From Henricia sp. BOLD:AAB3569 (taxonomy: Eukaryota > Echinodermata > Asteroidea > Spinulosida > Echinasteridae): a stretch of DNA of 64,000 nucleotides. This document shows positions 26,301 through 56,400 of the stretch, piece by piece. Below the pieces are notes generated by a model. It saw nothing but the letters and a program-made list of their open reading frames with translations, ran no database searches and was not told where the DNA came from. Positions within the stretch are counted from its first letter, which is position 1; each line of letters opens with the position of its first letter. Made by a program: the position numbers and the translations under genes. The stretch spans positions 434,001 to 498,000 of the forward strand of contig JBBELK010000564.1 in NCBI GenBank assembly GCA_037783545.1, given 5' to 3'.

Positions 26301-26486
26301 TCACCATTTGATGACCTTCGTTTCTGTAAGAACAGCTATAGTCAGGAATCCCCCATATAAAACATACAGGCAGATGCCATAGACTCGGGTGGCCTTGAAC
26401 TTGCGAAGGACGTGGTAGAACAGAGAGAAGAACAGACTGACACCAAGACCAGCAGCTAAGACATACTGTAACTGAGTTGTTTTCAG
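26301..26486 (-). CDS. SLC8B1: NCLX exon 17 (last)
   Basis: Acceptor TGCTCTGTCTACAG, then 61 codons to TGA. It encodes LQYVLAAGLGVSLFFSLFYH and VYGICLYVLYGGFLTIAVLT, ending ETKVIKW, which matches the conserved NCLX C-terminus. No canonical AATAAA was found close by on the minus strand. Confidence 0.93.
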   Translation of the reverse strand: MKTTQLQYVLAAGLGVSLFFSLFYHVLRKFKATRVYGICLYVLYGGFLTIAVLTETKVIKW

Positions 26487-29400: not shown

Positions 29401-32400
29401 CAACTGGGAGACATGCGCAGATGCGCCAATCGGCAAAGATGACTGGCGCATCGTAGAATGATTCTGGAAATTTTGGTTGATATTTTGAATGTTCAAGCTT
29501 CCACATCGAATGCAAATCTTGTAAATATTTTCATGATTTATTTTCATCAGATACTTGTGATTAATTTTGTGGAAAACTAAGCTTTTATTAGCCGGGATGT
29601 AATTGTTAATGACTGTGGTGCACCAGGGATCCCGATAACGCTTTCGAGCGCGATTGAGTGTACGTAACGTTCCCAACGCCAAGGTGCACCAGGGACGAGC
29701 GCTCGAAAGCAGCCCAAGTTGTGTTTTATATAAATTGCATGTTTCGGTGGATCGTATGATTCGTTGCAACAGGACCAACTTACATAAAAGGTACCTCCGT
29801 GTTGAACGCAGGCAATAGTACATGAGATGCCTATACCAAGGAGCATGTCTGAAAAGGACTAGTTTAAGGAATTGATACTCCAGTATGACAAAGCAATAAA
29901 ATACAATGTAAGTGCTTCCCTATCATGGGCCCAATTTCATAAAACATGTTACGCTTAATCAGAAATCTTGGATTAAGCATATAACACGAATTGTCGCTTA
30001 AGCAAGGGCCTATTTCGTAAAGGTGGTTGTTCTGAGCTCACGAAGAGAGTGCGCGCGCAATGCCGTCTTTTGTTTTGTTTAAACGCGTTCGTCGTCTGCT
30101 TTACTTGTGTAAACGTCAAATCTTTCAAGTACCATCATTGATAATGTTTCCGTATCTGGATGATTATCACTACCACATACATGTAAGACCCTTGCCTGTC
30201 GCTGACTGGGATATTTCATCAACAGCTGAAAGTGGTTTATCTGTTGAAAAAAAGTCTCGAATTTTTCCGAGTATGGCTAACAAAAAGATGGCGTCACTTT
30301 AGCAAAAAATCTGTAAAATACCTTCGACCTAATCATTATTGCGGCAAGAATTTAACTCGCTAAATAGCCTACCCGGGTAGGCTATTGTCGTCGTTTCCCA
30401 CGACAAACGTTAACCCGGAGAATCGTCTCATAGTCGCCGTTAACCCCGAGATTTGTGGTGGGTTAACCCACCTCCCAAGCAGGGCTAGAAATTACCCGGG
30501 TTAAGTGTCATTTTTGGCCAGATAACCCGGGTAATTCGTAACCCCGAGATTTGCCGTGGGAAACGATCCCTTAACCCGGGTAATCTCGGGCTTAAATTTT
30601 TCTGTTACCCGGGTTATCTCGAGGTTAAAGTGCCGTGGGAAAAGGCCTCTAGTGACCAAGAAAAAACCTGCACTGCCACTTTGGTAAAAGGATACTGAAC
30701 AGAGGTCCACCAAAGCAAGCAGCAACAGCCATCCTGGGATAGCCCTGCTTGGCAACAGCAATGTCGGAAACTAAATCTGTCAAACAGAGAAGAACGTTTG
30801 AAGTTTACTGTGGAATAAAATGTTTAAAATCTCTGCTTTAGAATAAAGGAGGCGATGGTGGAGTTGCGTCCCATCTGAGGATACAGGAAGAGTGGGAGTT
30901 TTTGTTGCAATGTTAGGTCTGGTAATCTTGTGAAATGGCCTGCGGGATAGTCCCCAAAGATCATAATACACCAGATAGACCACTGGACATTTTCTTGTGG
31001 GGGCATTTAAATTGAAGTCCACGGTTTTTATTTTTCCGCTTTGCCCATGAATCTACATGAATCTACATGGAGAGACATATAAGAGCCAAAGTCACCCTTC
31101 TCAGGCAGAACATAGCATTGGATCAGGAGTGTCTTTAAATTGCAGTTATTAAAGTGTGAAAATCTGATATGGCAGTCACCTAGAGGACTGAGGAGCTACA
31201 CAGTCACCTATACGACGACTATACGATCAATGCGATGGCTATACAATCACAACGATGGCTTTACGATTATGACAATGGCTACCCGATTGCTATATGGTGA
31301 CTATTCGACCATGTGCGACTGACATTTTGGTCGTGTTCGAACACAATTTTTTTAACCCTCCGGAAATGGAACCTACCAGTTGCCGACTGGCTAATTATGC
31401 GTTTTTGTGAATTACTCTGCGTATGAATTTAGTTAAAATCTCATTTTCCATGACTTTATACATTATACGCTTGAGAAACATATTGTAGAATTTGTGTGGC
31501 CTTGGTAAGCTTATTCACCCGCTGTATCAGTTACAAGCTACCAGGCCAGCAGTCCCACATGGGAATTCCCCATTGACTGTGCACAAAAGGCCTTGGCATG
31601 GGGGGGGGGGGGGGGGGGAGGGGGGGAAGGGGGGGGGGAAGGGGGGGGAAGGGGGGAAGGGGGGGGGAGGGGGGGGGAAGGGGGGGGGGGGAAGGGGGGG
31701 GGGGAAGGGGGGGGGGGGAAGGGGGGGGGGGGGGGGAAGGGGGGGGAAGCGTTGTGGTAATTAATGAAATTGATGAAATTGAGCAATTGGCACTATGAGC
31801 AAGAACATGTACATGTTCATTGTAACCCCATTGTTAGTAACAATGGTGTGTGCCCAATTTCCATTGTTAGATGTTCATAGTGTGGGAACTGGTAATTGAT
31901 GAAATTGAGCAATTGGGAACTGGAGTGATGTCTGTCATCTGTTGGGCACGTTCTTTTCAGTCAAGCGTATCTAGCTATAAACAGAGTAAAGGGAGGTTTT
32001 GACTGCCCAATTAGCCAACTCCCTTCCCTGCCCCTCCTGCAAAACTTCCTGGATCCGCACCTGGTTATATACAATCTCTAGACCGTCCGAAAGAATTTGG
32101 AAATGTTAAGAGTCCATTTATGCAGGGGTATATGCCCCGTTCATCGAGTTACACACTGCCAGCTGTCGACTGGTACACTCCTGTAATGAGGTACCTGGAT
32201 CGCCCACGCGCACCACAGGGTTAAGCATGTTTTTAAAAATTCATGCTCGATGAAGATCACGCACGATGGCTATTCAATCAACGCGAGTGAAGTATGACGG
32301 CTATTCGACCATGCACGATCAATGCATAGTTCCGAGATTGCCCAGTTAACCCCGCCCCTTAGATACTGTTGCTATGTGCTCACAAGCCATCGCAAAAAAA

Positions 32401-35400
32401 TGGCGACTCAACGTACAAAGCAACGGGACTCGGCATGGAAAGCACAGATTCATTGGAGAAAACTCACAGGTATTTATGTTTTAGGGTCGACAGTTACCGT
32501 AGCACACACTGAGCGAAGGGCTAGTAATGCAGGGATGACATATATTCATAAAAATGCGCTTTCCTACCTTTCAACAGCGAATCGCCCGACATTGAAACCA
32601 AAATTCACCCGGTCACTGGCGCATACAACATGTACAAACTGTATAGGCCTATGGGCAGATAATCGCGTGAATTTTGTGATGCAATGCACTTTGACCTACA
32701 TGTATGTGGGCTCTGTCTGCTAGCTCTGTTGTGATTAGTCGGCGGGTCCGGCTTGATTGACAGGTCGGAACTATGCATTAGAAGACCACCACACGACCGC
32801 ACTTTTTCGCTAGATCGTGTTTGGTCGTATTCCAATCTACCTTTGTGGGAAAGGGGCTTTACCCTGTAGTTTGCACTCTCATGAAAAGTCAATATTTCCA
32901 TCTGTTCCTACCTCCTATACTGTTACCCCAGGCTAGTAGCGTCAAACCTAGAATAGCATCGCTAAGCTGTAAGACTGAACCATACATCTGTTGGGAACAA
33001 AATAAATATGAGGATAAAACTGACAGCAAATGGTTGAATTTTGATTGGAACAGGTTCAACCTGCACCTGTAAGTGAATTAATAGAGGGGAATCAGACCTG
33101 GGTCTGATCTGCCCTTTACAATCCACTTTTTGTGTTTTCATTTATAGTGCCTTGCCGCCTTCAACTCGCTTTGTCTTTTTAAGAAAAAGCGGGGTTTGAT
33201 GTACCCCAAGAACATTCTCATTACAAACAATGTTTATAGGCTTCGACATATGTGACCTGCTCTGCAAAAAAAGGGTCTGAAGTCGCACTGGCTAGTATTC
33301 TTCTTGCGACCATAAAAAGAAATCTGTGGCATTTCTACGCTCATTAAAATACCTAAACACAAAAGAAATTCCAGGCGTAACGCAGACATTCCAGGGGGAA
33401 CACAGACATTCCATGCGGTATCTGGGCACCGCCAGGAATTTCCATTGTGTTTTGGTATTTTATTGAGCGTAGATTTGCCGCAGAGTCTTTTGATGGTCGC
33501 AAAAAGAATACTAGCCAGAGCGACTTAAGACCTTTTTTTGCAGAGCGGGTCACATATGAACTGTCCCGAGACTACTAATTCTGCAATGCACTCACCTGTA
33601 ATAAATTGACAATCTCATTTGCTATTGAATAGATCCACAGGACGGATATGCCAAATCCAACAAATGCAAATAACTAGGAAAAGAACAAAACAAATATAAA
33701 GTCAGCTTATACCACACAGGTTCAATCTGAGAGCCCTAAACTACAGGATTCTCCCACAAACAGGAAATGTCGCATTCCACTGTTGTGCCAGTGGGAATCA
33801 CATCAAACAGGTTCAAACGGGTCCACCATTTGGACCTCGAGGAAAGCACTGAAGCGAAACATTCTTGAAAATAAAGTGTCTGGTCGATTAGTCCCTTGTT
33901 ATCGACAAGTTCACGATCAGGAATGGGCATTTTAAGAAAATTGTGTTTATAGGAGAACATACATATTCTAGCACAAACGCCAAACAATAAAAGGACTTTT
34001 CAATTATCAAATTTCAACCCCTGCAAACCCCGCGTCAACCCAGGGCTCGAAATACCCACTGGACCGGTGGACCGAGGCCAGTAATTTAAGCCTCGGTCTA
34101 GTGCTTTCTCTACCATACTACATGTAGACCAGTGGTCCAGTGCATTTTTAAACTAACGAACAGTAAATCCACGTTCCTTGTAGCTTTGGTCTTGTAAAAA
34201 TAGCGTCGATCCAGTAAATGATTTAAGCTACTAACCCTGTGGTCTAGCAGATTTGTTCATGAAATTTGAGCCCTGCAACCCCCGAGATTGGTTTCAACAC
34301 GGGTTAAGCCCAACCCTGCTTGGGACCAGAGTTGAAATTTATCGCCCCGGGTTGAAAATTGAACTTTTTATTGGGAAAGGACAGCCTTTCGCAAGTGCGA
34401 AACACTCGATTGTCACTCGCCTCTGTGTTGAACTCCGGGTTGAACTCAACGCGGTTTGTGCCTGAAACGATGCAGGGTTGAAAATTCGCAACTCGGGTTC
34501 AACCCGGGTTGAGAAGGTGTAGTGTTAAAAGGCCTTATGTCAAAACAAGTTTCTGCTTACAAAATGGTAAACTGGCGGTTTGTTGGGTTTGGACGTAAGA
34601 AAGATCACAGTGGCTAGTAGGAACCCTATACCCAACATGAGCTCCCATAGCATAAAGTTCCCTACAATTGGCCTGAAGTAACCTGAAACAAATACAGGAA
34701 AAATAGAGTTCATGTAACAATTTCTGAAAAAGAATATATTATATACATGTAATAAACTATCTTATATACAGTAAACCTTTAATAATAATGATGATATTTA
34801 TATAGCGCACATATCCACCCTGCTCAAGGCGCTGTTACCATTATTACCGCTGCCATCAGGGAATCACCAGAACCATTTCGCTATAACTAGGTTAGATTGT
34901 GGCATTCCCCTTAACAGCTTCCCATATATCGCTTGGGTTGACGAGGCAACTGGGATTAAGTGCCTTGCCCAGGGACACAGACACGTTGGTCGAAGTGGGG
35001 CTCGAACCCCCAACCTCTAATTGGGAATCCCGCTTCATACCCACTAGACCACACGCGCTCCGTGCATAAGTCGGATACATTTATGTCGGATTTTCACTTA
35101 TTTCAGATTTTGTATGTTATTCCTAATAAAAATCATCACTTAAAGATAGTTTACATGATTGGTAAACTGTTACAAAGAGTTTTATCCCCCTGTGTGATTG
35201 AAGATATGCATGATTAAAACCAACCTGAGCAAAAACCAGCTCCGTAATTCGTCTAACTTTTGAGAAAACAGTCAAAAAAGAGTTTGTAGTCATTCCGCCC
35301 CCGAACCACTTCGCCCTGAACCATTTCGCCCTGAACCATTTCGCCCTGAACCATGCCACGGCCTGTGCACGAAGTGGTTTTGGGGCGAAGTAGCATTTAG

Positions 35401-38400
35401 ACGATGTAGTGTTTGGACGAAGATATTTGGGGCGAAATGGCACTCGGGCGAAGTGGTTTGGGGGCGAAATGGCACTTGGGCGAAAGGGTTTTGGGCCGAA
35501 TTGAATTTTCGTCTCATGAGACGAAAACTAACTGTTTTACTCATTTCTTAAAGACTATAGCACCTTAGACAAAACCATTTGAGGGGAAGTTTTCTACGGT
35601 CATCATGTTTATATTGTGTAAGTTAGGCGTAAATCTGTGAACATTTCTGATTTTCGTGATACCAATTATGTATATACTGCCTTTAAATCGGATCATGTAA
35701 GTCGGATATTTGCTTATCTTAGATTCATCAACCTAAAACATTTGTTCAATTCCTTGAACAAAAGGAAACGAAAGTGGACATGTTCGTATATTAATTTCAC
35801 AACTTCGGGAAGCCGCTCCATGCGGCTTTCCAAAATGCCGCCTGCATGAACTTGATTGTACACTGTACATACGATGTGTGTGTGTGTGTGTGTGCATGTA
35901 CCATATACTGTACTTGCACACATGTGCATTATCGTCAGCAGCAGTTTCTATGTGCACACGTGATCACAGGCTGCATCTTTCATTGGCCAAGGTGGGTAGG
36001 CTGAGCAGCACGTGTGTACATCATCGATATATATACACTGGATGAAGCAACGACGTCTAGAATTGAAGCCACTGTCCCCCACCTAATACAATGCCTTGCC
36101 TAGACTGGTCATACTGTCTTCACTAGTCTACATCATGGTCAACATGTGTTAAGTGGAATGCAAGTGATCGCATGGACCGGGGAGCAGTCTAGGCCATGCA
36201 TTGTTCGTGGGGTACAATATAATAGACCTTTATCACGGTGCGGCCATCTTCCTTTTTCTCCAAATAAAATTAACGTAACCAAAGCGAGGCTTGCAGAAAA
36301 AATAGTTTGGTCACGTTTTAAAATGGTTAATTGTTGTGCATCACAATGGCACAGGCGTTTCGCGACCAAGAAAGCGCACAGCGTGGAGAGTGATTCTCAA
36401 CAGGAGATACGCGCGCTGATCGCGCGGACACGCAGACGCACTGATTGTACGCGACACGTACTATGGGGAACAAGACAAAGATGGACGCACCGTGATAAAG
36501 GTCTATGGCGGCCGGAGCATGGCTTCAATTCTCGTATATCCAACTGCTATTGCATACTTCATCCAGTGTATATATATCGATGGTGTACATGTACTGCATG
36601 GCCACGATCAGACGATGTCGACACTCGAGGCACAAATGTATGATCGCGCCCGGCAAATGATGCGTACGATTTTCTGCCTTATAAGTACATGTATGAAAAT
36701 GAAAATGTAGTGTAAAAATAAAATGTTTTTGCGTTGGAATTTTTAATTAAACTGTCTACCGTTGGGTGGTTGAAGATCAATGAATCCCTATGGTTTTTTT
36801 CATCTTCGCGTAAGTCTGATAAAATCTCTCGGTCCCGACAATTATCCGAGGTTTACTGTATTTATGAATGCTAATTACATTTTCTCCTCAGTATAAAATA
36901 AAACACAATCTACTCACTTTTGGTAACAACCACACAGAACAGCGGCCCTATGGCAAACTGGAAACAGTTGAGGAGTTTATTCCAGCAATGTCTGTCTTCA
37001 GTATGATCCACTAGGGGGACGGTCGATTGTAACAACAGCTGGAGAGGAGACTAGGTACAGAAAAAGACAGGAACATGCATGTGGGTATTTCCATAAGAAA
37101 AGGAGCCAAAGTGTGACATTTTTATGCATTTGTAAAAATGGCCTTTGCAAGTTAACAAAAATGTTTAAAGAAATTTCTGTGCAATTTCTCAATAATGTAG
37201 AATATTTACAATAATTTACAAACAGTGTTCGATTCATAAGGTCATATATTCTTTATATGCCGAGGGTAATCATTCTCTGAAGTCCGGTAATTATAAAAAA
37301 TCAACTCTAGAAGTGTCACGACGTAAGGGGGACACTGTGTCCCGTTTTCATGGAATGACCCACGTATGGAAGGTACGAGTCAACAAGTCAAGTCTGCAAC
37401 ATTGGCATTTTAGGCTAAAAAAAAAATAAAACAACAAAATTTTTATGAGAAAATACCGCTTTACCAGTTTACCAGTTAAAATCTCAAATAATTTGTGTTG
37501 CTTTAAATTGGTAGTCTCCAATAGACCATGTAAGGAGGAACTTTACGATTTGGTGAATCTGGGAAAACTCGTGGGACAACTAGGGATGATTCAAGTAACT
37601 CGGGCACAACTCGTAACAACTCGTTCCGACTCGTATTAGCTCGTAGCAGTGCGAAACTTGTGTCAAAAGTTTTAAACATGTTTAACATTTCGACCACAAG
37701 TTCCCAACTCGTGAGCAACTTGCACCAAACTAGTGCAACTCGTAGGCCAATAGTACAACTCTTAGCAAACTCGTACAGCACTGTATCACACGAGTCTGCA
37801 TAGAGTTTGATACGAGTTGTACGAGATGTCTATACAAGTTATAAGACTTCAAGCACGAGTTGCAAGAGTCGGTGAAATTCCAGATGGTTTGGCGCAAAAT
37901 CCCAAGCAAACCGCTGAAGTCGGGTAAGTCGTAGCAAACTCGTGCCACACTCTTAACTGACTCATAGTAAGCTCGGAAAGCTCGTAGTGAACTCGTGAGT
38001 TACTTGGGAAACTCCTGCCTAATTCGTAATAACTCGTAAAACTTGCAGTACACTAGGGACAACTCATACCAGGCTCGTATCAAATTCGTACCCAACTCGT
38101 AGTACGCTCGTAGTATACTAGTAGATATTGTGACGCCAAGGGTTTTACCAAGAGTTTCCCGAATTCGTCAACTCTTGAAGCTCGTGCTAAAAAATGTTTC
38201 CGTGTGTGAGAGGGCCTTTAGTCGAATCACTGTCGAATCTTCGTCGAACAAAGCAATTTTCCCTAATGCGAATCATCCTGAGATATCAGAGAATTTCCAC
38301 TCTGCAAAGCGACGTAACAATACCCTGAGGAAACACACGCAAATCTGTGGAGTGTGAGCCGGCTGTTGTCTTGAGCCAACTCACGCCCGAGTCATTTTGA

Positions 38401-41400
38401 TGTAATTTAATCAATTCGGTCATGTCATGCCGAAAAGAAACGATTTCTATACTTTCCAGAAATTGTATTGGGTTCCGTTCCTTATGACTGTCCCATTCAT
38501 ACCAAACTTTCAAACGACGATCTTAATTTACTCCGCAGTTTTTCAAATTAATAACAGGGATGCATGCCGACAAATGTAATGGAATGGATTCCCCAGTATG
38601 CTTTAAATAGCAGCCAATCGTCGACGCGGACAACGGCCAGCATTACCGAGTACATGTATCACATGCATGCACGGTGTTTACAATCTGCGCGCGTTACATT
38701 TGAATGCCTGCAATCATGCTGCAATGCACTGCCAAGCGTCCTGATTGGTCCAGCAGAGGCGACAAGATTGTTGTCGCTAGTCCCACCGCGAAATGGGGCC
38801 TTTTTCAACAGGGCCACTGTACGCAGGAGTTAGGGAGTGCGTTAAAGGGGCACTGTTGCAAGAGGATGAATGTGAATGGGATCACTGACACACAAGCAAA
38901 ACTTTGGGAAAGAAAGGTTACTTTATGCGGAGGAATGCTAAAGCAGGTGGTGGTAATGTTCTGTGAGACAGCAAAAGAAAAAGTCGAATGGAAACGTTAC
39001 TTTGCAATTGATTTCTCACCTTAAATATCTCGTAGAATTTACCGACAATGGATTTACCCTTCCAGTTCTCAACATCTATAGGGTTGATACCTCTAAAGAA
39101 GTCTTTGATCTGGTCACCACAACTTAACATGCACGTTGTTTCTGTGTGCTTGTCCTCGTCATCGTGGGAGCCTAACAATGGCCTGGTTGGATCATCAATG
39201 TCTATTGAAAGTAGATCAGAGCACATTTGGAATTGGAGAATAGAAAAGACAGGTTTAAACTCTTTTCGACTTGCACTCATCAGAGCATGTTAAAGCAGGC
39301 CTCGAAATTCGTGTTCAAAAGGGCACGGTAATAATTGCCTTGCTTTTTCCCACATTTAAAGGGCATCACAGCAATTCTATCATTTAAAGGGCATCACGGC
39401 AGTTTACTTGAACTTGGAGGGCACCACAGCAATTATTAATAGTACTTAGCTGGGGTTGCAGTCTGAGGGTTTTCTTTTTTTATCAGCGTTGATCATGAAA
39501 TATTGCTTCAACCTCATCGATAAATCGTCTATGCTAATCGCAGTGCCTGCGACTCAATGACCACGGTTATATCACGAACTTCATGCTAATGTTCGTGCAT
39601 CTTCGTCTTTGGCTGGATTCTGCAATCGACACGTTGTAGTGTACATGTACTTTATCATAGTCGACCGCGAGTGCACGCACGAGCTGTACACCGGACCCAT
39701 GACCGACCACTATGAAGCCCTCTCAACATACGTACAATTTCACCTGGAAACCAGAGCGGAGTTCGATTAAGGGAATACAGTAAACTATCGTCTAGAGTCC
39801 CTCGTGTGACGGATATTTTCCAATGTTGTAGGGACTTTCGTCGAACTGTACTTTTTGTACACGACCAATAGAGTTATGTAATGCTACAGTCACACGGTCA
39901 TATACGGATCATGCGGACGCTGCGGATTTTTGTCCTAAAAAAAATCCGCAGAATCCGTATCTATCCGTAATGGATCCGTAATTAATCCGCAGGATCCGCA
40001 GAAATATTTTGAAAATCTCACAATATTTTTTAAAGTTCCCGCGGATAAAAAATCCGTAAAAAATCCGCAATGCATCTGTAATTATCCGTAATATACGTAA
40101 CTTCTCTGTAAACTATCCGTAAAAATTAGATGTCACCTGCCGCAATTGTTTTTCATTTAGGCGTAAATGTCCGTATTTATCCGTAATTCATCCGCAATTA
40201 TCCGTATTTCATGGCTAATTTAACTTTTCTGCGCAGGTTTTTAAGTGATTTTCTGCAGATAAAAAATCCGCAGCTTACGTATTTGACCGTGTGACTGTAG
40301 CATAAGGTTGGTATAATTACTGCACTGCTTTTACATGTAGTTTACAAAAGATTGCTGGTTTTTTTTTTTTTACAATATCGTTGAAAATGTATGGACTGAG
40401 AACACAAAATTTCAGAATGGCAATGAGAAAAATAAAAGAAATGATACGGTATCAGAATCTCAACACCCATGGGAAAAATGGGGGTGTCAAAAATGTGACC
40501 CTAACTTCACTTACCATAGGAGATGGGTGGTTTGTCCAGATCAGGCAGCCCATCATCAGTGGGATCATTAATGGTGGCACCGTTGGGCATTTCCCCATCA
40601 CCTAGTATGTTGTTGACTGATGTACCGTGGCCAGCTAGTAAGGAGGCTGCTACAATTTGCTCAGAGTCAAATAGAGCCTCCCTAATACCTGGAAGAAGGG
40701 ACAAAAAAGAGAGTTCTTATTGTCAATCGGAGCCATTATGGCCAAATGTTTCATGTGGGGTGTTATGGCCGAGCGGTCTAGTGTGTCGAACTCAAGTTCC
40801 TGTACGTGCCAGTACTAGAATGTGGGTTCGATTCCGGGCCGTGACGGGTTGTGGCACTTGTGCTCTTGAGCAAGGCACTTAATCACACTTGTTCCGTCCT
40901 TCGGAAGGGATGTAAAACCGTTGGTCCAGTGTATTAGGTTTCGGTATTGCACTCTAAAGATCCCAGAGCATTCTTTCGTGAAGAGCAAGGGGAGGGATTC
41001 CCCGGTGTCTCTGGCAATTTCTAATTCAACTTAGAAGTTGATAGTTATTCGAATAGCTATGTTAATTGATCCCATTCCTGTAATTGGCGGTTCTTCCGCT
41101 GTTGGATGTGGTTAATAAATAAATAAATAAATAAATAAATAAAATAAATATTTCATAAAATGTCGTGTGTTGGGCATCAGCAAGCTTATGTGCACTACCG
41201 CTTGGCGAAGACTAGATTAATCAATTAATTGCGAGTAGTAAACGGTATAAAATAAATATTTCATAAAATGTCGTGTGTTGGGCATCAGCAAGCTTATGTG
41301 CACTACCGCTGGGCGAAGACTTGATTAATCAATTAACTGCGAGTAGTAAGCGGTACTCAAACTGCAAGCGCGTGTTCATGACATTAATTGCACGACGTTG

Positions 41401-44400
41401 AAGCTGACGCGTTTGCGTATGACGCACGTGTGGTAGATGAGTCAGATTCGGTCTTAAGTACTTTTTCATATTCTCAGGCTGTCAGATGTTCTCCAATCAA
41501 ATGACAATGATCTCTTTGGCTCCGCCCCGTTGAATGGAACATTCCATCTTTCAACTCATGAAAATATTTCTACCATTAAACTTATAAACATTAATTACTT
41601 GTATAACATTTAACAATCACACAGAGATAACGACATTTGTAGCAATTTTCAAATCGTACATGTAGATCTCTCACAAATTTATTGATGAATTTATGATACA
41701 AGCAATCTCAGAACAAGAACACACCTGATGGAGCATGGGTGTTGGGTACATGGCTGTCCGGCACGTAGGTCTCAGCAGCATAGCGTGCCAATGATCCATA
41801 CATAGTGTTGTGAAACTCTGGCTTGCCCGAAACTAGAACATCACTTTCTGTAAAACCTGCAAAATCAGAGACCATTTGAAATAGACCCCGTTCTCACTAG
41901 AGAAATCGCTTCGTTCGACGAAGATTAAGTAATCATCATTAGTTAATGAAGGGTGCGTTCACATATCACTTTAATAACGAAGATCGAACGAAGATCGAAT
42001 GAAGCTGTGGGAGGTCGTACATGCACGTCGCGCGTCTAGATGTGCTATATGGTTTTCCAGTGGCTCGTCAAAAACAATGCTTGCTGGGCACTTGACACAC
42101 AACGCGCTTGTGGAACCAGGCCAGATGCCAAATTGCTTCGTCGAACGAAGGGAGCGTTCTCATTATAAATTTGCTTCATCAAATGAAGCGATTTCTTTAT
42201 CAAATGAAGCTATTTGCTTCATCGAATGAAGCGATTCTAATCATCGTCGAATGAAGAGGCGTGCGTTCACATCAGGAAAACTCTTCGTTGAATCATCGTT
42301 GAATCATCGTCGAACGAAGCGATTTCTCCAGTGAGAATGGGGTCATTGTGACTTTGAACATTGTGCATGTAAAAATAAACTACAATAACATACTTATCAC
42401 TTGTGTTGTGCACTGCACAATACAGTGGGTGAGGTCACAATTCTCTGTGTGTAATTACGTGTTAGTGTTACAGATCTGTTATCTTAATCGGAATGGTGAC
42501 CTCAGAACAAACACCGTGTTAACAGGACGTGTTAGTGTCACTGTTAATGTTGAAAGTCGTGCATAGAACCGATCAAGGTCGCAGTTCTCTATGTTACGTG
42601 TTATGTGTTAGTGTTAGACTGTTAGTGTTACAGATCTGTTAACAGATGTGTTAACCTGCAACACCAAGTATTTATCTAAGTGTTGCAAATCAACGACCCA
42701 AACTATACTCGGCCACTCAATGACTTTCTGTTCAAATATATACTGCCATTGTCTGGCATATCAACAGTCCACGGTATCAATTGTGTACATGTACTTCAAA
42801 CCGGCAGTGAGCACCACGCAGCAACAAAAATTTAGTATGGTCAAGTATATACACCAAGTGTACATGTGAAAGGAAGTACGTCAGTACACCTGATGCGACT
42901 CATGCAAAGCATGCAAAAAACTAATAATGTTTATTTCCTGGCATTTTGTCAGTAAAACTCACCAATTTCTGACGATGTTCTGTCGAATAAATAAACAATC
43001 AACGGCAGTATTAATCTTATCAGATTGTGGCAAGATTTACCGGCTGCATGTCCTTATTTTTTGAAGTCAAGTTCGCTGTATATTAAAGTCTCATTTCGTT
43101 TGGATCATAAATCCACTTCATTGCAGTTTGGAAACGTTCCAGCTTGCAAAGTTGACATCCATTTTAAGTCAACAACACGTTCCAACTCGTTTTTTTGACG
43201 AAATTTCATAGTGAGTACATCGACATGTTTCAACATCTTATGGGAGCGCGTGTGGTCTAGTGGGTATGAAGCGGGACTCCCAATCAGAGGTTGAGGGTTC
43301 GAGCCCCACTTCGACCAACGTGTCTGTGTCCCTGGGCAAGGCACTTAATCCCAGTTGCCTCGTCAACCCAAGCGATATCTTGATATATGGGAAGCTGTTA
43401 AGAGGAATGCTACAATCTAACTGCTGATAGGGTTGTGCGCCTGACCAGCAGCCACCTAGTTGAAGCGAAATGGTTCTGGTGATTCCCTGATGGCAGCGGT
43501 AATAATGGTAACAGCGCCTTGAGCACCCTGCAGGGTGGATATGTGCGCTATACAAATCTAATCATTATTATTATTATTAACATGCTCAATCACCATGTAA
43601 TATTAGATGGTCCAGCTTAGAAATGCATAGAGTAATGTGCGAGGTGTTCTAGGTACCATACAGACTTTCACGCCGGCTAACATGTACCGGCCTGCACCAC
43701 CGCAGCAGCGTGATTTGCCAGGTAGTCTGGTGCTTGACTCACTCATACGCGAGCCCCATAGCGCGAAGGCAGGACTCCAGGATTTATGCAACTGGTCTAT
43801 TATTAGGACAGCACATTTTACTATCAACACTACAGAATGAGAGTTTAGTTCAAACAGCACAAACCACCTTTCAACTCACGTCCCGAGTTTCCAATAGACG
43901 TTGCAGCAATCATTCGGACCTGTCGAGGCTTGATCTGTGTTTGGTATAACCTCCGACCTAGTAGGACGACTAACACGTAACCGACATAGAGAAGTATAAA
44001 ACCTGGGGGAGATGATTTTACAAATTTTATAATTATTAGTACAAAAAGAGACGTATTGAATATCAATTCAAATGTCTTCAAAATCATGTCAATAATTGAA
44101 TCAGAAATGGGTGGTATTATTATTACTTCTTTCTGGTACTGAAACCAAGGATTCCTCAAAAGTGCCCATTGCACTGTCGCTCGCAAGCGTGAGGAAACCT
44201 GTGAGGAGAAGACGATGAATTAGAAACGGCCAGATGAGACACCTTACTCTTCACAAAATAATGCTCTGGGATCTTTAAAGTGCATTACCTAACGCACTGG
44301 ACCAACGGCCTTACATCCCTTCCAAAGGATGGAGCAAGTGTGTTTTAATAAGTGCCTTGCTCAAGGGCACATGTACCCCAGCCGGGTATCGAACCGGCAA

Positions 44401-47400
44401 CTCCAGGTTTTCACCCGAGTATTGCGAGTCGGTGACCTAATTAAACCGCTCGGCCACGGTACCCCACTGTATACGATAAGTCAAAGAGTGAGACACAAAA
44501 AGTGACTAAACATGATATTTGTGCCCCATTTTTTGTGACCAAAACTAGATATTTTCTTTCAAAATTCTATGAACTTTAGATTGTGCTGCCAAAGACATGA
44601 TGCGACAAAATAAACTTGCAACCTGGAAATATGTGAATTCAGAGTTTATATGACTTGAGGGTACCAACATTTTCATTTCCAAATTATCACTATGATAGAT
44701 AGCTGCCATCTTGTGGCACAACATATTATATTATTATATAAAATGAAGCTGTGAGCGATACCGTGCATTTCTGTTACTGTACGTTATAGCGCCCTCTGTG
44801 GGTGGAAAATGTCACACACTGTACAGTAACAAAAAATACTGTACAACAGTATCGATTCTGCATGTATGCACAACCGGAACCAACCGAGCTCGCGCGCGCA
44901 CTTCAATTCCACGAAATGAAAAGAAAATGGCGAGCCCAGATTTGATACGATAGAAGACGATGAATACGATGACATCCTCCAAAATAGAGAAAGCGGAGCG
45001 ACACGGAGAAGCACCACGAAAGCAGTGAACATTTTGAAGCTGTACTTGAGGGAAAAGGAATTGTCAGAGGACTTTGAAGACTTAAGCAAAATTGAACTGA
45101 ATGCGATTCTCCGTAAGTTTTAGGCCTACGTGGGATTACGAAAGTATTTGAAAACACAGTTTCCATATGTGCCAGCATGGAGCTATAAAAGGAGCTCCAT
45201 GGTGCCAGGGTGAAATGTTTACTGTTGCTTGTGGAACTTTCAACAATTTCGAATTTTAAATTATACTGTCTGAAAAATGTTACAAGTGTGTCAGCTTCAT
45301 TTTATATAACACTAATAATATTGGATGTCTTTTCGGGTGATATGAGAATATACCGCACTCGTCATGAAAATACCGAACTCGCCTTCGGCTCGTTCGGTAT
45401 TTTCATGACTCGTGCGGTATATCACCCTCAAAGCCATCCAATATTATATAATTAACATTGGTAAACCACATACATGTACATGCAAACTGTACAAAATGTG
45501 CAACCATCGTCCTCGAAAAACCAAGAAACTGCTCTACAAGGTAACAGTTATCCGATACGGTCAATACAAATCTTTGACTAATAGTCAGGCAGCATGTGGT
45601 AAGAAATTAAGGCCCGTGGGCACCGGATGATTAGAAAATGCCACATAGCTAGATGTCTTAATTACACCCCAAGGAACAAGAAAAACCATGTTGGCAAAAT
45701 CTGAGTGGTTGCATACGGCGGCCATCTTGGATTTCAAAATGGCCGACATTTTATAACAATTTTCTGCTAGAAAAAAGTTCCCCAACCTCCAACAAAATTT
45801 AACAAAAGATTTTTCAGTGGTTATTGGTCCTACTGAATGTGGTGAATGACAGGAAAAAAGTCTACCAAAATCAAGTCACCAGAAATGGGTGAAATCTGGG
45901 CCAATTCCAAAATGGCCGCCAATGACCTTGAAAATCGTCAAAATGGCTGTAGCTTCTGTAATATTTGGAGTAAAACGGTGACTTAAATGTCTACCCTGGG
46001 GTTTTCAGTGTCAGGGAATTCACTGGTATTCATGATATTTCAATCCAACCTTCGAAAAACAATAAAAGCAACAAATTCAAAATGGCGGTCATAATATATA
46101 GGCATGGAAGGGGGTAGAGAAATTGGCTTCTCTAACTGCTTATGTCAGATGTAGCTTCTTTTATTGGTCAGTAATGTGCTTAACAAGACCCCCCCAACCC
46201 CCCGTCTAGTGGCAAGACTGGCTGCATCAGCCACCGTACGAGCCGCTAAGACAGGGTGCGCCACTCTGCCAGAATTGCCTCTCTGACAATCTGTATTTCT
46301 AGGACTGTTTTAGAGACACGTGGTTCAGGAGGTCAGTTCATCCCACACAGGTTATATTAACAAATTACTATGATAATCCCAGCCCAGCCCAACCCTAAGC
46401 CATCCCGAAGCTCCGAAATCTAGCCCGAGACTGTCCCAGCCCAGCCTGATGCTACCCCAGCCCATGCAGCTCGAAGCCATATATGTCCTGCCTGAAGCCA
46501 CCCTAGCCCAGCCCGATGCCATCCGGCCCAGCCCGATGCCATCCGGCCCAGCCAAAGCCATCCCAGACCGAAGCCACCCAGCCGAGCCTAAAGCCGCCCC
46601 AAGCCACCGGCCCCAGGCTGGAAGTTCAGACCAGCCAGAAGCCAAACCCAAAGCCAGCCCGAATCAATCCCGGCCTAGCCCCAAGCCACCCCGGCCCAAC
46701 CCGAAACCATCCCGGCCCAGCCCGAAGTCACCCCGAAGCCAGCCCAAAGCCACCCCAGACCGAAGCCACCCCAGCCGATCCCAAAGCCACACCAGCCCGG
46801 CCCCAAGCCACCTGACCCCAGCTGGAAGTTCAGCCCAGCCAGAAGCCACCCCAGCCCAGCCCCAAGCTACCCCGGCCGAGTGCAAAGCTACCCCGGCCCA
46901 GCCCAACCCAAAACCACCCCGGCTCAGCCCGAATCCACCTCAGCCTAGCCCGAGGCCATCCCTGCCCAGCCCGAAGTCACCCCGCGAAGCCAGTCCAAAG
47001 CCACCCCAGACTGAAACCATCCCAACCGAGCCCAAAGCCACCCCATCCCATTCCCAAGCCACCCGACTCCAACTGGAAGTTCAGCCCAGCTGGAAGTTTA
47101 GCCCAGCCGGAAGCCACCCTGGCCCAACCCAAAGCCAGCCCGAATCCACCCCGGCCCAGCCTAAAGCCACCCCGGCCCAGCCCCACGCCACCCCGGCCTA
47201 GTCCTAAGCCACCCGATCCCAGCTGGAAGTTCAGCCCAGCTGGAAGTTTAGCCCAGCCGGATTCCACCCCGGCCCAGCCCAAAGCCACCCTGGCCCAGCC
47301 CCACGCCACCCCGGCCTAGTCCTAAGCCACCCGATCCCAGCTGAAAGTTTAGCCCAGCCGGAAGCCACCCCGGCCCAACCCAAAGCCAGCCCGAATCCAC

Positions 47401-50400
47401 CCCGGCCCAGCCCAAAGCCACCCTGGCCCAGTCCTAAGCCACCCGATCCCAGCTGGAAGTTTAGCCCAGCCGGAAGCCACCCCGACCCAACACAAAGCCA
47501 CCCCGGCCCAGCCCTAGGCCACCCGACCCCAGCTGGATGCTTAGCCCAGCCGGAAGCCACCACGGCCCAACCCACAGCCAGCACGAATCTACCCCGGCCC
47601 AGTCTGAAGCCACTCCGGCCCAGCCTGAAACCAACCAACCAAACCATCCCCATCCGCCCCAGCCCCAGGCCAGCCCATCCCAGCCCCGACAGCCGCAGCA
47701 CACCCCAGCACAGTTCAGCAGTTAAGTTTTTGCAGTTAAGGGTTTTTATTCTGATTAAACCTGCGTGGGATGAGCTGACCTCCTGAATCGTACATCTCAA
47801 AAGCAGCTCTAGAAGTGCATTCATGCAGAGTGGCGCACCCTGCCTTAGCGGCTCTTACGACGGTGATGCAGCCAGCCTTGCTACAAGACGTAATCATCCA
47901 TGTTACTGACCAATAATTATAAATATTACATATCCAACACCAGCAGTTAAAGAGAAGAATAACTAAGCACGGGCGTTCGAATTCTCTCTACCCCTATACC
48001 ACTGGGGATTTATGACCGCCATCTTGAGATTGTGGCTTTTATCGTTTGTTGAAGGTTGGGTTTAAATTTTATTGATGTCAGTGTATTGCCTGACCATGAC
48101 AACCCTAGGGTAGACATTTAAATCATTGTTCTACACAAAATATTAAAGAAGTTACAGCCATTTCAGCGATTTAAGGCCAACGGCAGCCATCTTGGAATTG
48201 ACCCAGATTTGAAATTGACCTCATCCTTATCACGTGACCCTGACCTCTCATAGTTTAAAACCTCAGAATTCCATTTAGCACCTCGGAAAACCATATAGTA
48301 TCAACAGAACGATCTTTAAAATCGGCTGATGATGTACCTACACCCGACACTGCCTACAACTGGCACCTGTTAATTTTAATGGCGGCCATATTGGAAATGA
48401 CCCAGATCCTCGGTCTAATCACGTGGCCCCGACCTCTCATCATTTTGAAAACCTCTGAATTGCATTCGGCACAACGGAAAACCATAGTTAAGTATAAACA
48501 CCATGATGTTTAAAATCGGCTGAGGTACCTACACCTGACACTGCCTATACACCGGACACCTGTTAATTTTAATGGCGGCCATATTGGAAATGACCCAGAT
48601 CCTCATCCTAATCACGTGACCCTGACCTGTCATCAGTTTGAAAATCTCAGAATTGCATTTAGCACCACGGAAAACAATAGTATCAACAACATGATATTTA
48701 AAATCGACTGATTAGCTAGTTGCCTACACCTTACATAGTTATATGCAATAAGGCTTAAACTGGCGACCATTTTGTAATCCAAGATGGCCGCCCTCTGCAA
48801 CATTTTTGAAATTGCCAACAATGTTTGTTGTGCTTCTGAGCACCCTTGTAATACATCTAGGTAGGTGAGACCTTCTAATCATTAAGGTCCCACGGGACAC
48901 CACATGCTGCCTGACTATAATAGGTTTTTACTGTGCTCATTTTTTCGTACCTACTGCTTCCATCGTCCATATTTTCCCTGAATATAAAATGTAGAATGTC
49001 CAAAATACCGCTCCAACGTAGAAGATGGCATCCCTCAAAAATGGTCTTTTGGCAAGCTCAAAGGGCTGGGCGATTGAAACGGAACCAGCTACGACAGTTG
49101 TGACAAAGACACCAGCACCTGGACAAATGGGTATAAAATTTGTGTGCCTCATAATATAATAAAATGTGTGCCTCAATAAAATACAATCTGTGTGCCTCAA
49201 TTTGTATGCCTCAATTTGTGTGCCTCACTTGTGTGCCTCAATTTGTGTGCCTCAATTTGTGTGCCTCAATTTGTGTGCCTCACTTGTGTGCCTCACTTGT
49301 GTGCCTCACTTGTGTGCCTCACTTGTGTGCCTCACTTGTGTGCCTCACTTGTGTGCCTCACTTGTGTGCCTCACTTGTGTGCCTCACTTGTGTGCCTCAC
49401 TTGTGTGCCTCACTTGTGTGCCTCACTTGTGTGCCTCACTTGTGTGCCTCACTTGTGTGCCTCACTTGTGTGCCTCACTTGTGTGCCTCACTTGTGTGCC
49501 TCACTTGTGTGCCTCACTTGTGTGCCTCACTTGTGTGCCTCACTTGTGTGCCTCACTTGTGTGCCTAAAATATTTGAGTATCCAAATATTTGGTCAATTA
49601 CATCAAATTCAAATATCGATAGTCGGCGATTGTTTTGAGATCCACGCGGAGCTCTGACGACATTATACAACAATCTGCATCAGGGCAGCGCTAAAACAAA
49701 TTAACAATCGCAAGAGTAGAACATGTCAAAGTTGCGACGTGATGCCGATCATCACAGGCAAGTTCTATGGAAGATGCGCACAAGACACATGTGACACATG
49801 CACTTCAGCCAATCAGCGTGCAGAAAAATCATGTCATAAAATCATCATCACATTGAGTCGTGCGTGGCATGAGCATCGTTGCAATTATTTTGTGTCAGGT
49901 TGCTGCTTGTTTAGCGATACTCACAAGATTTGTTCAGTTTTGTGACCCGAGTGTTACTTTTTTGCTTGATGCGGCGCATGAGAATTGCAGGTCGACCTAT
50001 AGGCAGCTCAAGACTATTAATGTTAATGCAGGACCACCCCTGGCTAAATATACAATGTATGCACAACTTGAAATAAGGAATTTTAGCAAATACTGTACCG
50101 AAGAGGGCTCCAATAGCGAGACCAGCGTTGCCATCTTTAGCACTGGTAATGGCTGCAATGGCACTGAAGATATCAGGAGCACCGTTGCCAAAGGCTAGGA
50201 AGGTTACACCGTTGGTTTGTCATTAAGGAATTCAAAGTTTAGAAGTTTAAATTATTATTATTATTACTTCTTTCGGGTACTGAAACCAAGTGCCCATTGC
50301 ACTGTCGCTCGCAAGCGTGAGGAAACCCATGAGGAGAAGACGATGAATTAGAAATGGCCAGAGACACCGGGGAATCCCCTTGCTCTTCACGAAAGAATGC

Positions 50401-53400
50401 TCTGAGATCTTTAAAGTGCGTTACCCAACACATTGGACCAATGGCTTTACATCCCTTCCGAAGGATGGAGCAAGTGTGTTTAAGTGCCTTGCTCAAGGGC
50501 ACAGGTGTGTACCCAAGACGGGTATCGAACCTGCAACCACAAGTTTTCACCCGAGTATTGCGAGTCAGTGACCCAAACCACTGATCAAAAACAAGATGGC
50601 TGTTTTTCAAATTTTTTCTCCGGGTATGTTAATTTTGACGTCATGAGATCAAACATAAATTTCATAAATTTTAATATTACGCACGCGCACACGTTCGGAA
50701 CCGCCCAAAGCCGGTTACGGTGATGTGCCAGCATTCAATAACACAGTCGTTTCCTATCTTGTTGTTAATAGATATCTGTGGTGTATATCGAACAGCTGCC
50801 ATCTTGTGGGGCAACTTTTGACATTTAAATCGGTCAACAATGTACCGGTAAGCACAAAATGTGCAGCCATGATGTCATCAAGAAACAAAAAAACTGCCCT
50901 ACAAGACGACATCGCAGCTATTAGATACAACCTACATGTGTACAGTATGCTCAAAGTATGCTAGTGTTAATTTAACAAACACCACACAAATGTTTTTTTT
51001 TCTGCCCAAAATTGTACAATCGTTTGTGCAGGAAACAAAAGAAGGTGGTTTTTAAAACAATGTGTGTACCGGGTACACACATATTTTTAACCATGAAATT
51101 AATAACTGAAGGAAATAAATAACTGACAGTGGTTTTAAAAAGATGAGTATGCACCTTTTTATTAGCATTTACCCAACACAAAAACCATGCGTGGGTTTTA
51201 AAGGTTTTCAGAAAAAAAACTTGCAAAGAAATTTTCTGGGATCTTTTAAGTGCATTATAAGACAATTTTTGATACGAACCTTACTGATTCGTCAGGACAT
51301 TCGTAAACATTCGTGAAGACAATCGTAAACATTCTTAAACGATCGTAATGATTCGTCTTGGTCGCAAAGCCATTACAAAATTTTTGAAATGTTCAAAAAT
51401 TCCGTGAACGGTCGTATCGTCGCACTGGTCATATCGTTATAAAGTCGTAATGTGTCTTATCAATGCCATCGTAAAGGTTCTTAACCAATCCATATCAGCA
51501 TTATTTCAATACAAACTTTTCAGATCTTTTAAGTTTTTTTACGATTTGATACAAATTAATTAAGTCACGGGAAATCATAATTTCCAGGAAACCGCGACAG
51601 AGAATTGCTTCCAGGTCTGCAAAAATCGTTAAGAATCTCAAGCGATCGTAATGGCATCGCAAGCGAGCGTAATAGCATTGCATACAATCTTAAAAGATCG
51701 CAAAAAGTCTCAAAGAAATTGGAATGCATCTTAAAATGTCACAATCTGATCGAAAACTTTTGCAAAGTGTCGTATCAGTGTCGCAAGGATTCGCATCAAA
51801 ATCGTTTCCACTTTTACGATCATCGTATGATGGTTGTACATAGTAAGTGGTCGTAACCTGTCGTAAAACGGAATCGTAACATGTTCTTTTAGGTCGTTTC
51901 CGTCATGGTAATTAGGGATTTCTGGGCTTTTTCATTACGATGTAATGCGGTTCATACATGTACGTCGTGTTGATTCGTATCCAAAATCGTCTACCGGTAT
52001 ATAAAGTGTGATATGGGCATACCACAACCCACAAAATATACATGTTTTCATCCCATCCAAAGGATATGGGACAAATATGGTCAATAACTTGAGGGATTTA
52101 AACAACGCTGAATGCCGCAATGGGGCGACATTTCGGCAAGACTCTCACCGGAGAGTGAGACCACCAAAATTTCGGCAAGAGTCACTCAAAATGACACCTT
52201 ATTTTTTTACCCAAAGCTTCCAAAAATGGTTGCAGACCGAAGAGAAACAGCTCCAGTCCCAATAAAAATGGTTCTCGACCTAAACAAAATGGTTTTTGAC
52301 CTAAAAAAATGAATTTTAAGCTCAAAAATATTAGGGCGACACCAAAATGTCGCCCTATATTGAGCAGGTCACCCTAATATAGCTTTTTTACACACGATTT
52401 GTCGCCCTATTCTAGCATTGATAGTAATTTGCTCAAGACTGCAAGATTATAAATTTTTGCAAGCCAGCATATCCAATACTAATAGTACGTACTCCACTGA
52501 TATAAGTACGATACATTCCTGTGGGTAATTCGTCCCTCATTTTCCACAAGTGGATTTATTTTGAGTGGTGCGCCCTTGGTTTGCATGCCCTTGATCTGAA
52601 GCATAATTGAATTATAGTGTTGAGTATACACCCATTATGGTTTAAAAAAACATTTCACGAGAGGTCACATTTCTTTGCACAGAAATAATGATACCTGTAG
52701 GCCTATAACGCAACAACAACAAAAGGATATTGCAATATTCTGGCTGAGCTTGAGAGAGTTGGAGATTGCTGTTAATGATGGGCAGAAACTGTACAGGGGA
52801 ATCAAAAGTTAGTTGTAAAAGCTATATAATGCATATTAAAACTGTACTGCAATGCAGTAGTAACACAATTTTATATACTGTTGTTTTTAAATATGTGAGT
52901 CACTCCACCGAACCGAAAGTAGGCACTTGTCGCACAGGCCATCTGAGATAATGGATAATTTATGCATGTACATGTTGTATGTCAAGTAGGGCATTTTTTA
53001 TCTATACCAAGATTTCTGCATGAGACCACCTATTAAGTATCCATCTATCACCTAAATAAATTTGAGTTAATACTTAATGCTTTAGTGTTTTTCTAAAGCA
53101 TACAAAACATTACATGTACCTTCATGAAATAGGCTAATTTGGCGAAAACAATGGGAAAATCACTGATATTCCATGCTTATTTTCATTGCCTTCGGCAGGG
53201 GTTGGCCCTATATCCCATAAACAAGAAGTCAGAATTTGCATGGTTGCTAAGGACTTTATGCCTTAATAGAAGTACAACCTTCTACGCTATTTTTCTCTAA
53301 AGCGCTTCTTAAAACATTTTGCTCTTGGTCATCACAGAAATGGTCATAACTTGGTCAGTTTTGGACGGATTGACACAATGTTTGTAGTTTTGTGAAGCTT

Positions 53401-56400
53401 ACAATATACTAAAGTCATTAGCTCCATTTTCAGTTTATTATGCAAGAGCCTACTTTTGGTGGAGTGGCTCACATATTGTTTTTTTATTATTTCTTTATTT
53501 TTACATATACATGTAAGTTTTGTCACACTTATTTTTTTTTGTTCAATGCTCAAATCGCTCATCAAAATGGACAAAATGATACATGTACTATTCCAGGAAA
53601 CGAGAGAAAATAGTTTTGTTCCTGCAATTATCAACATGTATTGCAAACAGGTTTCTACTCTACCATATGATCAATTACTTTCCTTTTGGGCCTAAATACA
53701 ATGTAATACACCTTAGAGGCTATACAAACTGTTACAAACAAAATCACTGCATGATTTATAGTCTGTGATACAGAAACTGACCAGCATCCAAACTAAAACC
53801 CAAAAAACACATACACCGTGTTTACACTGGTTCCGCGCAATTTCGCGGGCTTTCCCCTACTACGGCTGTGGAGCGGATGTGGCAGGTTGCGGTAAAGATT
53901 AATTGCTTATCTAACCGCAAACTGATCCCGAGCTGAGGATCGAAGCCTCCGCCAACGCGAGACTAAAATTTCGGGGTCTGATCCGGGACCAATTTGGTCC
54001 CGAGAACGTTTGCACTCAGTTTGTGATCCGGGGCTGATCCCGCGCTCGGTGTCCGACCCTGAGCTCGGGATCAAATGTAAACAGGGTGATATGGTGTGTA
54101 AAGGGAACGTACCAAATTGGATTTCTTCCCATGGATAGTATTTTGGAGAGGAATTTTACATGATTTAAGTTAAAATGAAATCTATTTAATGAAGTCCTCA
54201 GAAGTCATTTAAAATGTCAAAAACAAGGGACTTATATGATGCAGACTCAACCTACAGAAAAACCTAAAGTCACGCATTTTTTTTTTAATCTCGGAGTTCA
54301 TGATGATAACGTAGGGTTGAAGTGCCTATTGAGCTGTGGGTTCTGTCATGGTTGACGTTGGGTCAAAGTTCAAATATTGCTTTCATTTCATTTATATTTA
54401 CCTATACATTTGAATTGTTCACCCGAGCTAAAGTCATCAAGGGGACAGCCAACCATTTGCAACATGACCATGAGTTGACAAAAAAAACCTTACTTAAAGT
54501 GTCGATAACAATGGTAATAAATGTATGAAGATTATTTTTTATTTTTTATTTTTTTTATTTATTATTATTTTTATTGGTAATCATAGAACCTTTTCAAGAC
54601 AAATGTACCATGAAATGTTTACTTACAAATCTTCTGCTGTCACTCCTAGTGATACAAAGAGAAAAACCAGCCAAATGAACTGAGAAAAAGAAGACAGAGC
54701 AACAATGTAAATACTTAAGGAAATAAAGGTGGGTTTGACCGGTCTTAAAACTGTATGTTTTAGACAAGCTAAATAGGACCCGCGCCTGAGTAGATGAAAA
54801 TTAGCCTAAATGCCAAAGGTCCAAACTTACCAGTAAAACCAGAGCCAGTGGAAGAAGTTTCTCAGAGAAGTTGCAGTAAGCAACTTGCAGGTAATTGATA
54901 AAGCCATCCTCATTGTGACAGTCATCTGTTGCTTTGATGAAGGAGCACTGCTCTGACCGGTTCAACTTGTGGTAGTCCACACACTGTATGACAAAAAAGT
55001 ACCATGTTCCTGGGCTGCGTTCCACTTAAAGGCACAGACTCCTCGGCAATGGGCGCGCGCCAAATTCGTGCCACGAAAAAAACACAGCTCCATGCCTTTG
55101 CTATAGAGCTGCGTATTTCGTGGCACGAATTTGGCGCGCGCGCATTGCTGACGAGCCTGTACCTTTAAAGTTGCATTGCCTGTGTTTCGGTGAAAGGATT
55201 AAAAAAATTAATTTACACAAGCGAACGAATTTAGAAAGCTTACGTGTCTCTGTAACGAAAAATATTAAAAACTTAAATTTCCGACATCGGGAATCGGAGA
55301 TACAAGCCTTTTTCTTGAAACGTGCTTCACATGTTGTACATGTGCGCGTACGCTCATATGTACATAGTATGTGTACAATGTACACATGTACGCGCACATG
55401 TACATTTACGTCATAACCCTGTCGATTAATTGACCAACCAGCCATTTAATCATTTCTTGTTTTTAATCAACTGGCATTAATCCTCGACGGATTTTTACGT
55501 TCTTGGTACCAAATGAAAGCTGATAACTTTTTCTATTCTAGAAAAATACCTATTTGACGCCCAAATCGGCCCAAACACGGGCAGTGCAACTTTAAGCGAA
55601 CATTTGCAAATGTTGGCACCAATGTTTTGCCCATTGTGAAACCATGGTGGAACGGATTGTTTGTCAACGGATTGTTTGTCAAAATAAGTTGCGGTCGTAG
55701 CGATGTTGTAATGTGGCTCACTGTTGCCTACTAAATATTTGATGAAATGTGACACGTTGCCATTGATTGTGTCTCGCCAGCGATAAGAGAAAAAAACCAC
55801 GAAAGGTGTGATTTATTTGTTATTTTCAAAACTGGAAACAATCGTCATTGATCGTCTGTCATCTTTCATGTCGTGTGCGCCATTTTGAAATGACTCGCGA
55901 ACATAGCAAACAAAACAAAAGTCTATTGGCCAACATTGGCGAACATTGGAAGCGTACAATACGTTCCACTTGAAATTATTGGCCAACGTTGCCAATGTTT
56001 GCAAATGTTCGTGTATACCGGTACATGTGGAACGCAGCCCAGAATTGTACAGAGCCTGTAAAAAGACTCAATTCTGAACTTTTTTTTTTTATTTCGAAGA
56101 AACGAAATATGTTTATTTTGAGGAAACAAAATAATTATTTTGAGTTAAAATGCCATTTTGACATGTTTGAGGAAATGAATTACATGCATTTTAACAGTTT
56201 GATGAAACGTAATACCAGTTCAAAGGCTATTTTTTCCGTATAGGGCTTGGGAATGTGATGTCATGCAACGTCACAATGCAGTGGTTAAATTTCTGCCATG
56301 TTTGTTGCCAGTAACATGCGCGAGTACGTTCAGATATATAAGCTATGGGAGCTACGTATCACTGTTAAACCGTTAAACTGTAGTGCAAAGACCCACAACC

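Follow-up and report, generated by a model that had tools for sequence, protein, structure and literature searches.

A predicted U12-type AT-AC intron, one of two minor introns in the NCLX gene of the sea star Henricia sp.

U12-type AT-AC introns are a known class of introns removed by the minor spliceosome, with examples recorded in U12DB and IAOD. AT-AC introns make up about 26% of human minor introns, phase 0 averages 22% among minor introns, and the density of minor introns in non-tunicate deuterostomes, Asterias for example, is like that of vertebrates (PMC10639083); the optimal distance from branch site to exon is 11–13 nucleotides (nt) (PMC3584512). In this study, a 64,000-nt stretch of the genome of Henricia sp. 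BOLD:AAB3569 (the window; positions 434001–498000 of contig JBBELK010000564.1, assembly GCA_037783545.1) was analysed together with the whole assembly (740.7 Mb, 2104 contigs). The window carries on its minus strand a gene predicted to encode the mitochondrial calcium exchanger NCLX, and intron 4 of this gene shares termini, donor, branch site and spacing with described U12-type AT-AC introns such as those of Nhe3/SLC9A7 and a T-type calcium channel gene (PMC2831892, PMC3584512). Those hosts also encode ion transporters, but they are different genes from NCLX. Judged from the sequence, intron 4 is very probably a genuine U12-type AT-AC intron in an animal NCLX gene and one of two U12-type introns there, a reading to which we give a probability of about 0.95.

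A preliminary description of the window had placed an AT-AC intron of the NCLX gene at 50211..52730, and these coordinates were exact when the sequence was re-read. Exon 4 ends in ...CTCAGCCAGAATATTGCA at 52731, the intron opens with ATATCCTTTT and closes with TTCCTTAATGACAAACCAAC, and exon 5 opens with GGTGTAACC at 50210; with slashes marking the boundaries, the junction on the minus strand is ...ATTGCA/ATATCCTTTTG ... TTCCTTAATGACAAACCAAC/GGTGTAACC. The U12 donor consensus is RTATCCTTT. The donor of intron 4, ATATCCTTT, matched this consensus at 9/9 positions and the branch site TTCCTTAAT matched TTCCTTRAY at 9/9, with a spacing of 12 nt, both in the window and in a second assembled copy of the gene (see below). 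The presumed branch A is at 50223, 12 bases from the end of the intron as had been claimed. No polypyrimidine tract was seen by eye before the 3′ end, the last bases being GACAAACCAAC. The preliminary description had proposed scoring both sites with U12 matrices; the donor and branch scores given here are counts of consensus matches and not weight-matrix scores, and in these terms both sites were perfect. The observation was thus confirmed, and its interpretation as a U12-type intron appears well supported.

The exons on both sides were placed by protein similarity. With exons 5 and 6 as the query, NCLX chains in the PDB were matched (9ps1, E = 3.7e-30), and spliced exons 2–7 matched PDB NCLX chains over 199 residues (9z4i, E = 1.8e-70; 9ps1, E = 2.3e-70). 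There was no gap at the AT-AC junction in this alignment, in keeping with the statement that LSQNIA is joined to exon 5 exactly as in the protein family. Pfam family PF01699 (Na_Ca_ex) was found in both halves of the predicted protein, and by the sequence match and these two halves the predicted gene is of the NCLX / SLC8B1 type. A probe based on human NCLX located further exons down to 26310, and boundaries were then set from splice sites and frame. The reading frame was open over spliced exons 2–7 and 9–15. The join of exons 7 and 8 is out of phase for the exon ends adopted, which makes an additional exon or a different end of exon 7 likely.

Scoring of the whole gene revealed a second minor intron that was absent from the preliminary description. 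Thirteen introns were scored for a U12 donor, and two of them, introns 4 and 13, reached 9/9 while the other 11 scored 5/9 or less; among these 11 is the intron between exons 7 and 8, whose ends are unsettled and whose donor score is therefore unreliable. The donor of intron 13, GTATCCTTT, scored 9/9, and its branch site scored 8/9 at 15 nt in both the window and the second copy. Removal of this intron joins FGGPLF to NMLLGIG. On its donor and branch site, intron 13 is classed as a predicted U12-type intron of the GT-AG subtype.

Taken alone, the motifs are not uncommon in a stretch of 64 kb. RTATCCTTTT occurred twice in the window against an expectation of 0.59, a count also reached in 12 of 100 shuffles, while TTCCTTAA occurred four times with 3.59 expected. 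Donors of 9/9 were found at 3 of 127,982 window positions, and two of the three were exactly at NCLX exon ends. Around random points, a 9/9 branch site lay 8–21 nt away in 9 of 20,000 cases and one of at least 8/9 in 117 of 20,000. The coincidence of both motifs at an exon pair defined by protein similarity would not be expected by chance. One occurrence of TTCCTTAA, at 54722 before exon 3, was set aside, as the donor of that intron, GTAAGTTTG, is U2-type (5/9).

A collinear copy of the gene was present on another contig (C720), with exons 2–14 at 96–100% identity; it is probably the other haplotype. The alignment of exon 8 started at its third base (180/182), and exon 15 was not matched within the stretch of C720 examined. 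Intron 4 of this copy is 5539 nt long, yet its donor and last 20 nt are identical to those of the window, and intron 13 is likewise kept, with donor and intron end unchanged. Nonsynonymous (dN) and synonymous (dS) divergence between the two copies was 0.017 and 0.041 for exons 2–7, and 0.007 and 0.083 for exons 9–14.

A diverged NCLX paralog was located on contig C457, with 74% identity over 128 residues. At the position of intron 4 it reads SENVA/ATATCCTTTC ... CTGCAC/GGAGTC, an AT-AC intron at the same codon position and in the same phase, with a 9/9 donor. At the site corresponding to intron 13 it has GTATCCTTTA after GGGCCTATCTTCA, again with a 9/9 donor. Among the eight paralog introns with both ends located, these two scored 9/9 and the other six 5/9 or less. 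Since both donors stand at equal positions in the paralog, the two minor introns are most likely older than the NCLX duplication. Conversion to the U2 type is reported to be rarer for AT-AC than for GT-AG introns (PMC2831892), in keeping with an AT-AC intron kept in both paralogs. SLC24-like (NCKX-like) loci of the same genome, on C74/C194 and C23, carry related sequence with the motif DVAGATFMA at the equal position; we take the SLC24 label from this motif and not from a family search. Unlike NCLX, the loci on C74 and C23 have one open reading frame crossing the homologous point, with no intron. Outside this genome, 31 and 30 pattern matches were obtained in bacterial, archaeal and viral collections, where animal orthologs are not expected, and none was related.

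Components of the minor spliceosome were also searched for in the genome. A full-length U6atac gene was detected (Rfam RF00619, 138 bits against a cut-off of 33), and an exon on contig C266 encodes a U11-48K-like CHHC finger whose best PDB match was 2vy4 (E = 3e-5). In the CHHC search, 150 of 181 candidates were scored, giving three matches; a CHHC pair on C387 was not used for U11-48K, as in our reading it looks like GTSF1. With U6atac and the U11-48K-like finger encoded, the organism is predicted to possess a minor spliceosome. By the established mechanism, the U11/U12 di-snRNP (small nuclear ribonucleoprotein) would recognise ATATCCTTTT and TTCCTTAAT together, U6atac would then pair with the intron 4 donor, and within the first ion-binding repeat NIA would be spliced to GVTFLAFGNGAPD. 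We infer that the pre-mRNA is spliced at this pair by the minor machinery.

Several observations weigh against this conclusion. Phase 0, the phase of intron 4, is a minority phase for minor introns (see above). The branch sites of the paralog are weaker, being AACCTTAAC (7/9, at 16 nt) for intron 4 and GACTTTAAC (6/9, at 12 nt) for intron 13, and in the paralog 10 GT-AG and 11 GC-AG pairs keep the conserved FGNGAPD in frame; the assignment of its AT-AC intron is therefore based on the donor, on the shared position and on the family sequence that this pair yields exactly. The C266 finger is short and lacks specificity, the next match being GTSF1 (E = 1.9e-4), and one of the 14 control genomes, that of an archaeon, also gave a match to the finger family, so that the finger counts as supporting evidence only. 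U12 small nuclear RNA was not found by Rfam, a search that is uninformative, with 44 of 89,056 candidates scored and none of the 14 controls matched; a 21-base pattern based on human U12, searched for without mismatches, had no match in the genome, a search too weak to show absence.

Four other explanations were weighed. The exons could be spliced by an ordinary GT-AG or GC-AG pair, the AT-AC appearance being coincidental. Donors from within exon 4 to 300 nt beyond it were combined with acceptors lying between 400 nt upstream of exon 5 and the end of that exon, and in the window three GT-AG and four GC-AG pairs kept FGNGAPD in frame, which together with the pairs in the paralog favours this explanation. 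All seven window pairs, however, share an acceptor AG located 16 nt into exon 5, so that the conserved GVTFL is lost, and this AG is absent from the C720 copy, which reads CTCGC where the window reads CTAGC; over the same range, no GT-AG and no GC-AG pair kept FGNGAPD in that copy. The preliminary description had denied that any GT-AG alternative preserves the frame, which is right in substance and slightly too strong in wording. Sixteen AT-AC pairs (12 of them listed) kept FGNGAPD in the window, and of these the pair 52730/50211 yields the family sequence NIAGVTFLAFGNGAPD. With donor and branch site both at 9/9, splicing by an ordinary pair is very improbable. A U2-type AT-AC intron removed by the major spliceosome, like intron 21 of human SCN4A, has also to be considered, since the spliceosome used does not follow from AT-AC termini alone (PMC2831892). 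The U2-type AT-AC introns of sodium channels all have G at +5, according to the same source, but here +5 is C (donor ATATCCTTT), and a 9/9 U12 branch site lies at 12 nt and is not followed by a pyrimidine tract, which makes this class scarcely credible.

The loss of a true AG acceptor through an assembly error was the third explanation, and nothing was found in its favour. The final 20 nt of the intron are the same in the separately placed C720 copy, and the paralog intron also ends in AC, leaving such an error only a minimal chance. If the gene copy were a pseudogene, the junction would be unused, and exon 1 and the join of exons 7 and 8 are indeed not settled in the gene model. Against this, the frame is open across exons 2–7 and 9–15 and dN is below dS between the window and C720 copies, so a pseudogene is exceedingly unlikely. 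A U12-type AT-AC intron thus remains our explanation of the junction. The features are listed in Table 1.

Table 1. Predicted features of the NCLX gene (window positions)
Feature	Position	Strand	Basis
NCLX gene, exons 2–15 as located; candidate exon 1 start near 60070	26305..54983	-	Probe, splice sites, frame
Exon 4 (FCPSLTAISNSLKLSQNIA)	52731..52788	-	Human-NCLX probe, splice sites and frame, PDB match
Intron 4, AT-AC, U12-type, 2520 nt, phase 0	50211..52730	-	Sequence, frame, donor and branch scoring
U12-type 5′ splice site ATATCCTTTT of intron 4	52721..52730	-	Motif count and consensus scoring
U12-type branch site TTCCTTAAT of intron 4; presumed branch A at 50223, 12 nt upstream of exon 5	50222..50230	-	Motif count and consensus scoring
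Exon 5 (GVTFLAFGNGAPD..., first Na_Ca_ex repeat)	50099..50210	-	Human-NCLX probe, splice sites and frame, PDB match
Exon 13 (DLVSDIAVAKQGYPRMAVAACFGGPLF, second Na_Ca_ex repeat)	30696..30776	-	Splice sites, frame, PF01699
Intron 13, GT-AG, U12-type, 847 nt, phase 1, second Na_Ca_ex repeat	29849..30695	-	Frame, C720 copy, scoring
U12-type 5′ splice site GTATCCTTTT of intron 13	30686..30695	-	Motif count and consensus scoring
U12-like branch site TTCCTTAAA (8/9), 15 nt before exon 14	29863..29871	-	Motif count and consensus scoring
Exon 14 (NMLLGIGISCTIACVQHGGTFY)	29784..29848	-	Splice sites, frame, C720 copy

Several repeats lie within and around the gene. Intron 4 contains a repeat of about 330 bp (52096–52430) with at least 37 other matches at 94–96% identity, probably a short mobile element, and in its 3′ part a repeat with a GGTTCGATACC box (50252–50582, minus strand), related copies of which occur elsewhere in the genome; judging by the box motif, the latter is perhaps a tRNA-derived short interspersed element. 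Intron 5 contains 28.7 copies of the 13-mer TGTGTGCCTCACT a short distance upstream of exon 6 (49189–49566), and between exons 6 and 7 tandem repeats (46377–47786) have on the plus strand proline-rich open frames of 274 and 192 residues. At the edge of the window, a tandem array of 3.5 units of 350 bp (1–1224) carries three tRNA-Thr genes (anticodons CGT, AGT and CGT), and one more tRNA match is truncated at the window end.

A literature search linking NCLX, SLC8B1, SLC24A6 or calcium exchanger to minor introns found nothing relevant, database tables and supplements not being covered; the matches included a thyroid-cancer paper and a circular-RNA paper in which the passage matched concerns NCX1. 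It is tentatively proposed, at somewhat short of an even chance, that NCLX is an unrecognised minor-intron gene, with two U12-type introns of different subtypes, one per ion-binding repeat, predating the duplication. If so, a main exit route of mitochondrial calcium would depend on the minor spliceosome here and perhaps in many animals. The locus adds a mitochondrial calcium exchanger with both minor subtypes in one gene to the transport genes apparently dependent on this machinery. If the human gene shares the introns, disorders of the minor spliceosome might be linked to mitochondrial calcium. A subtype unchanged in two paralogs would also provide a small natural test of the stability of AT-AC introns.

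Minor introns were reported to cluster in the same genes in 21 of 21 genomes tested (PMC7367187). The presence of two minor introns in one gene, as in NCLX, matches this known tendency to cluster (PMC3584512, PMC7367187). NCLX differs from the known clustering in that its two introns belong to different subtypes, are divided between the two Na_Ca_ex halves and are both found again in the paralog. Intron 4 is a new example of a known intron type, to which this locus adds a second minor intron and the retention of both in a paralog.

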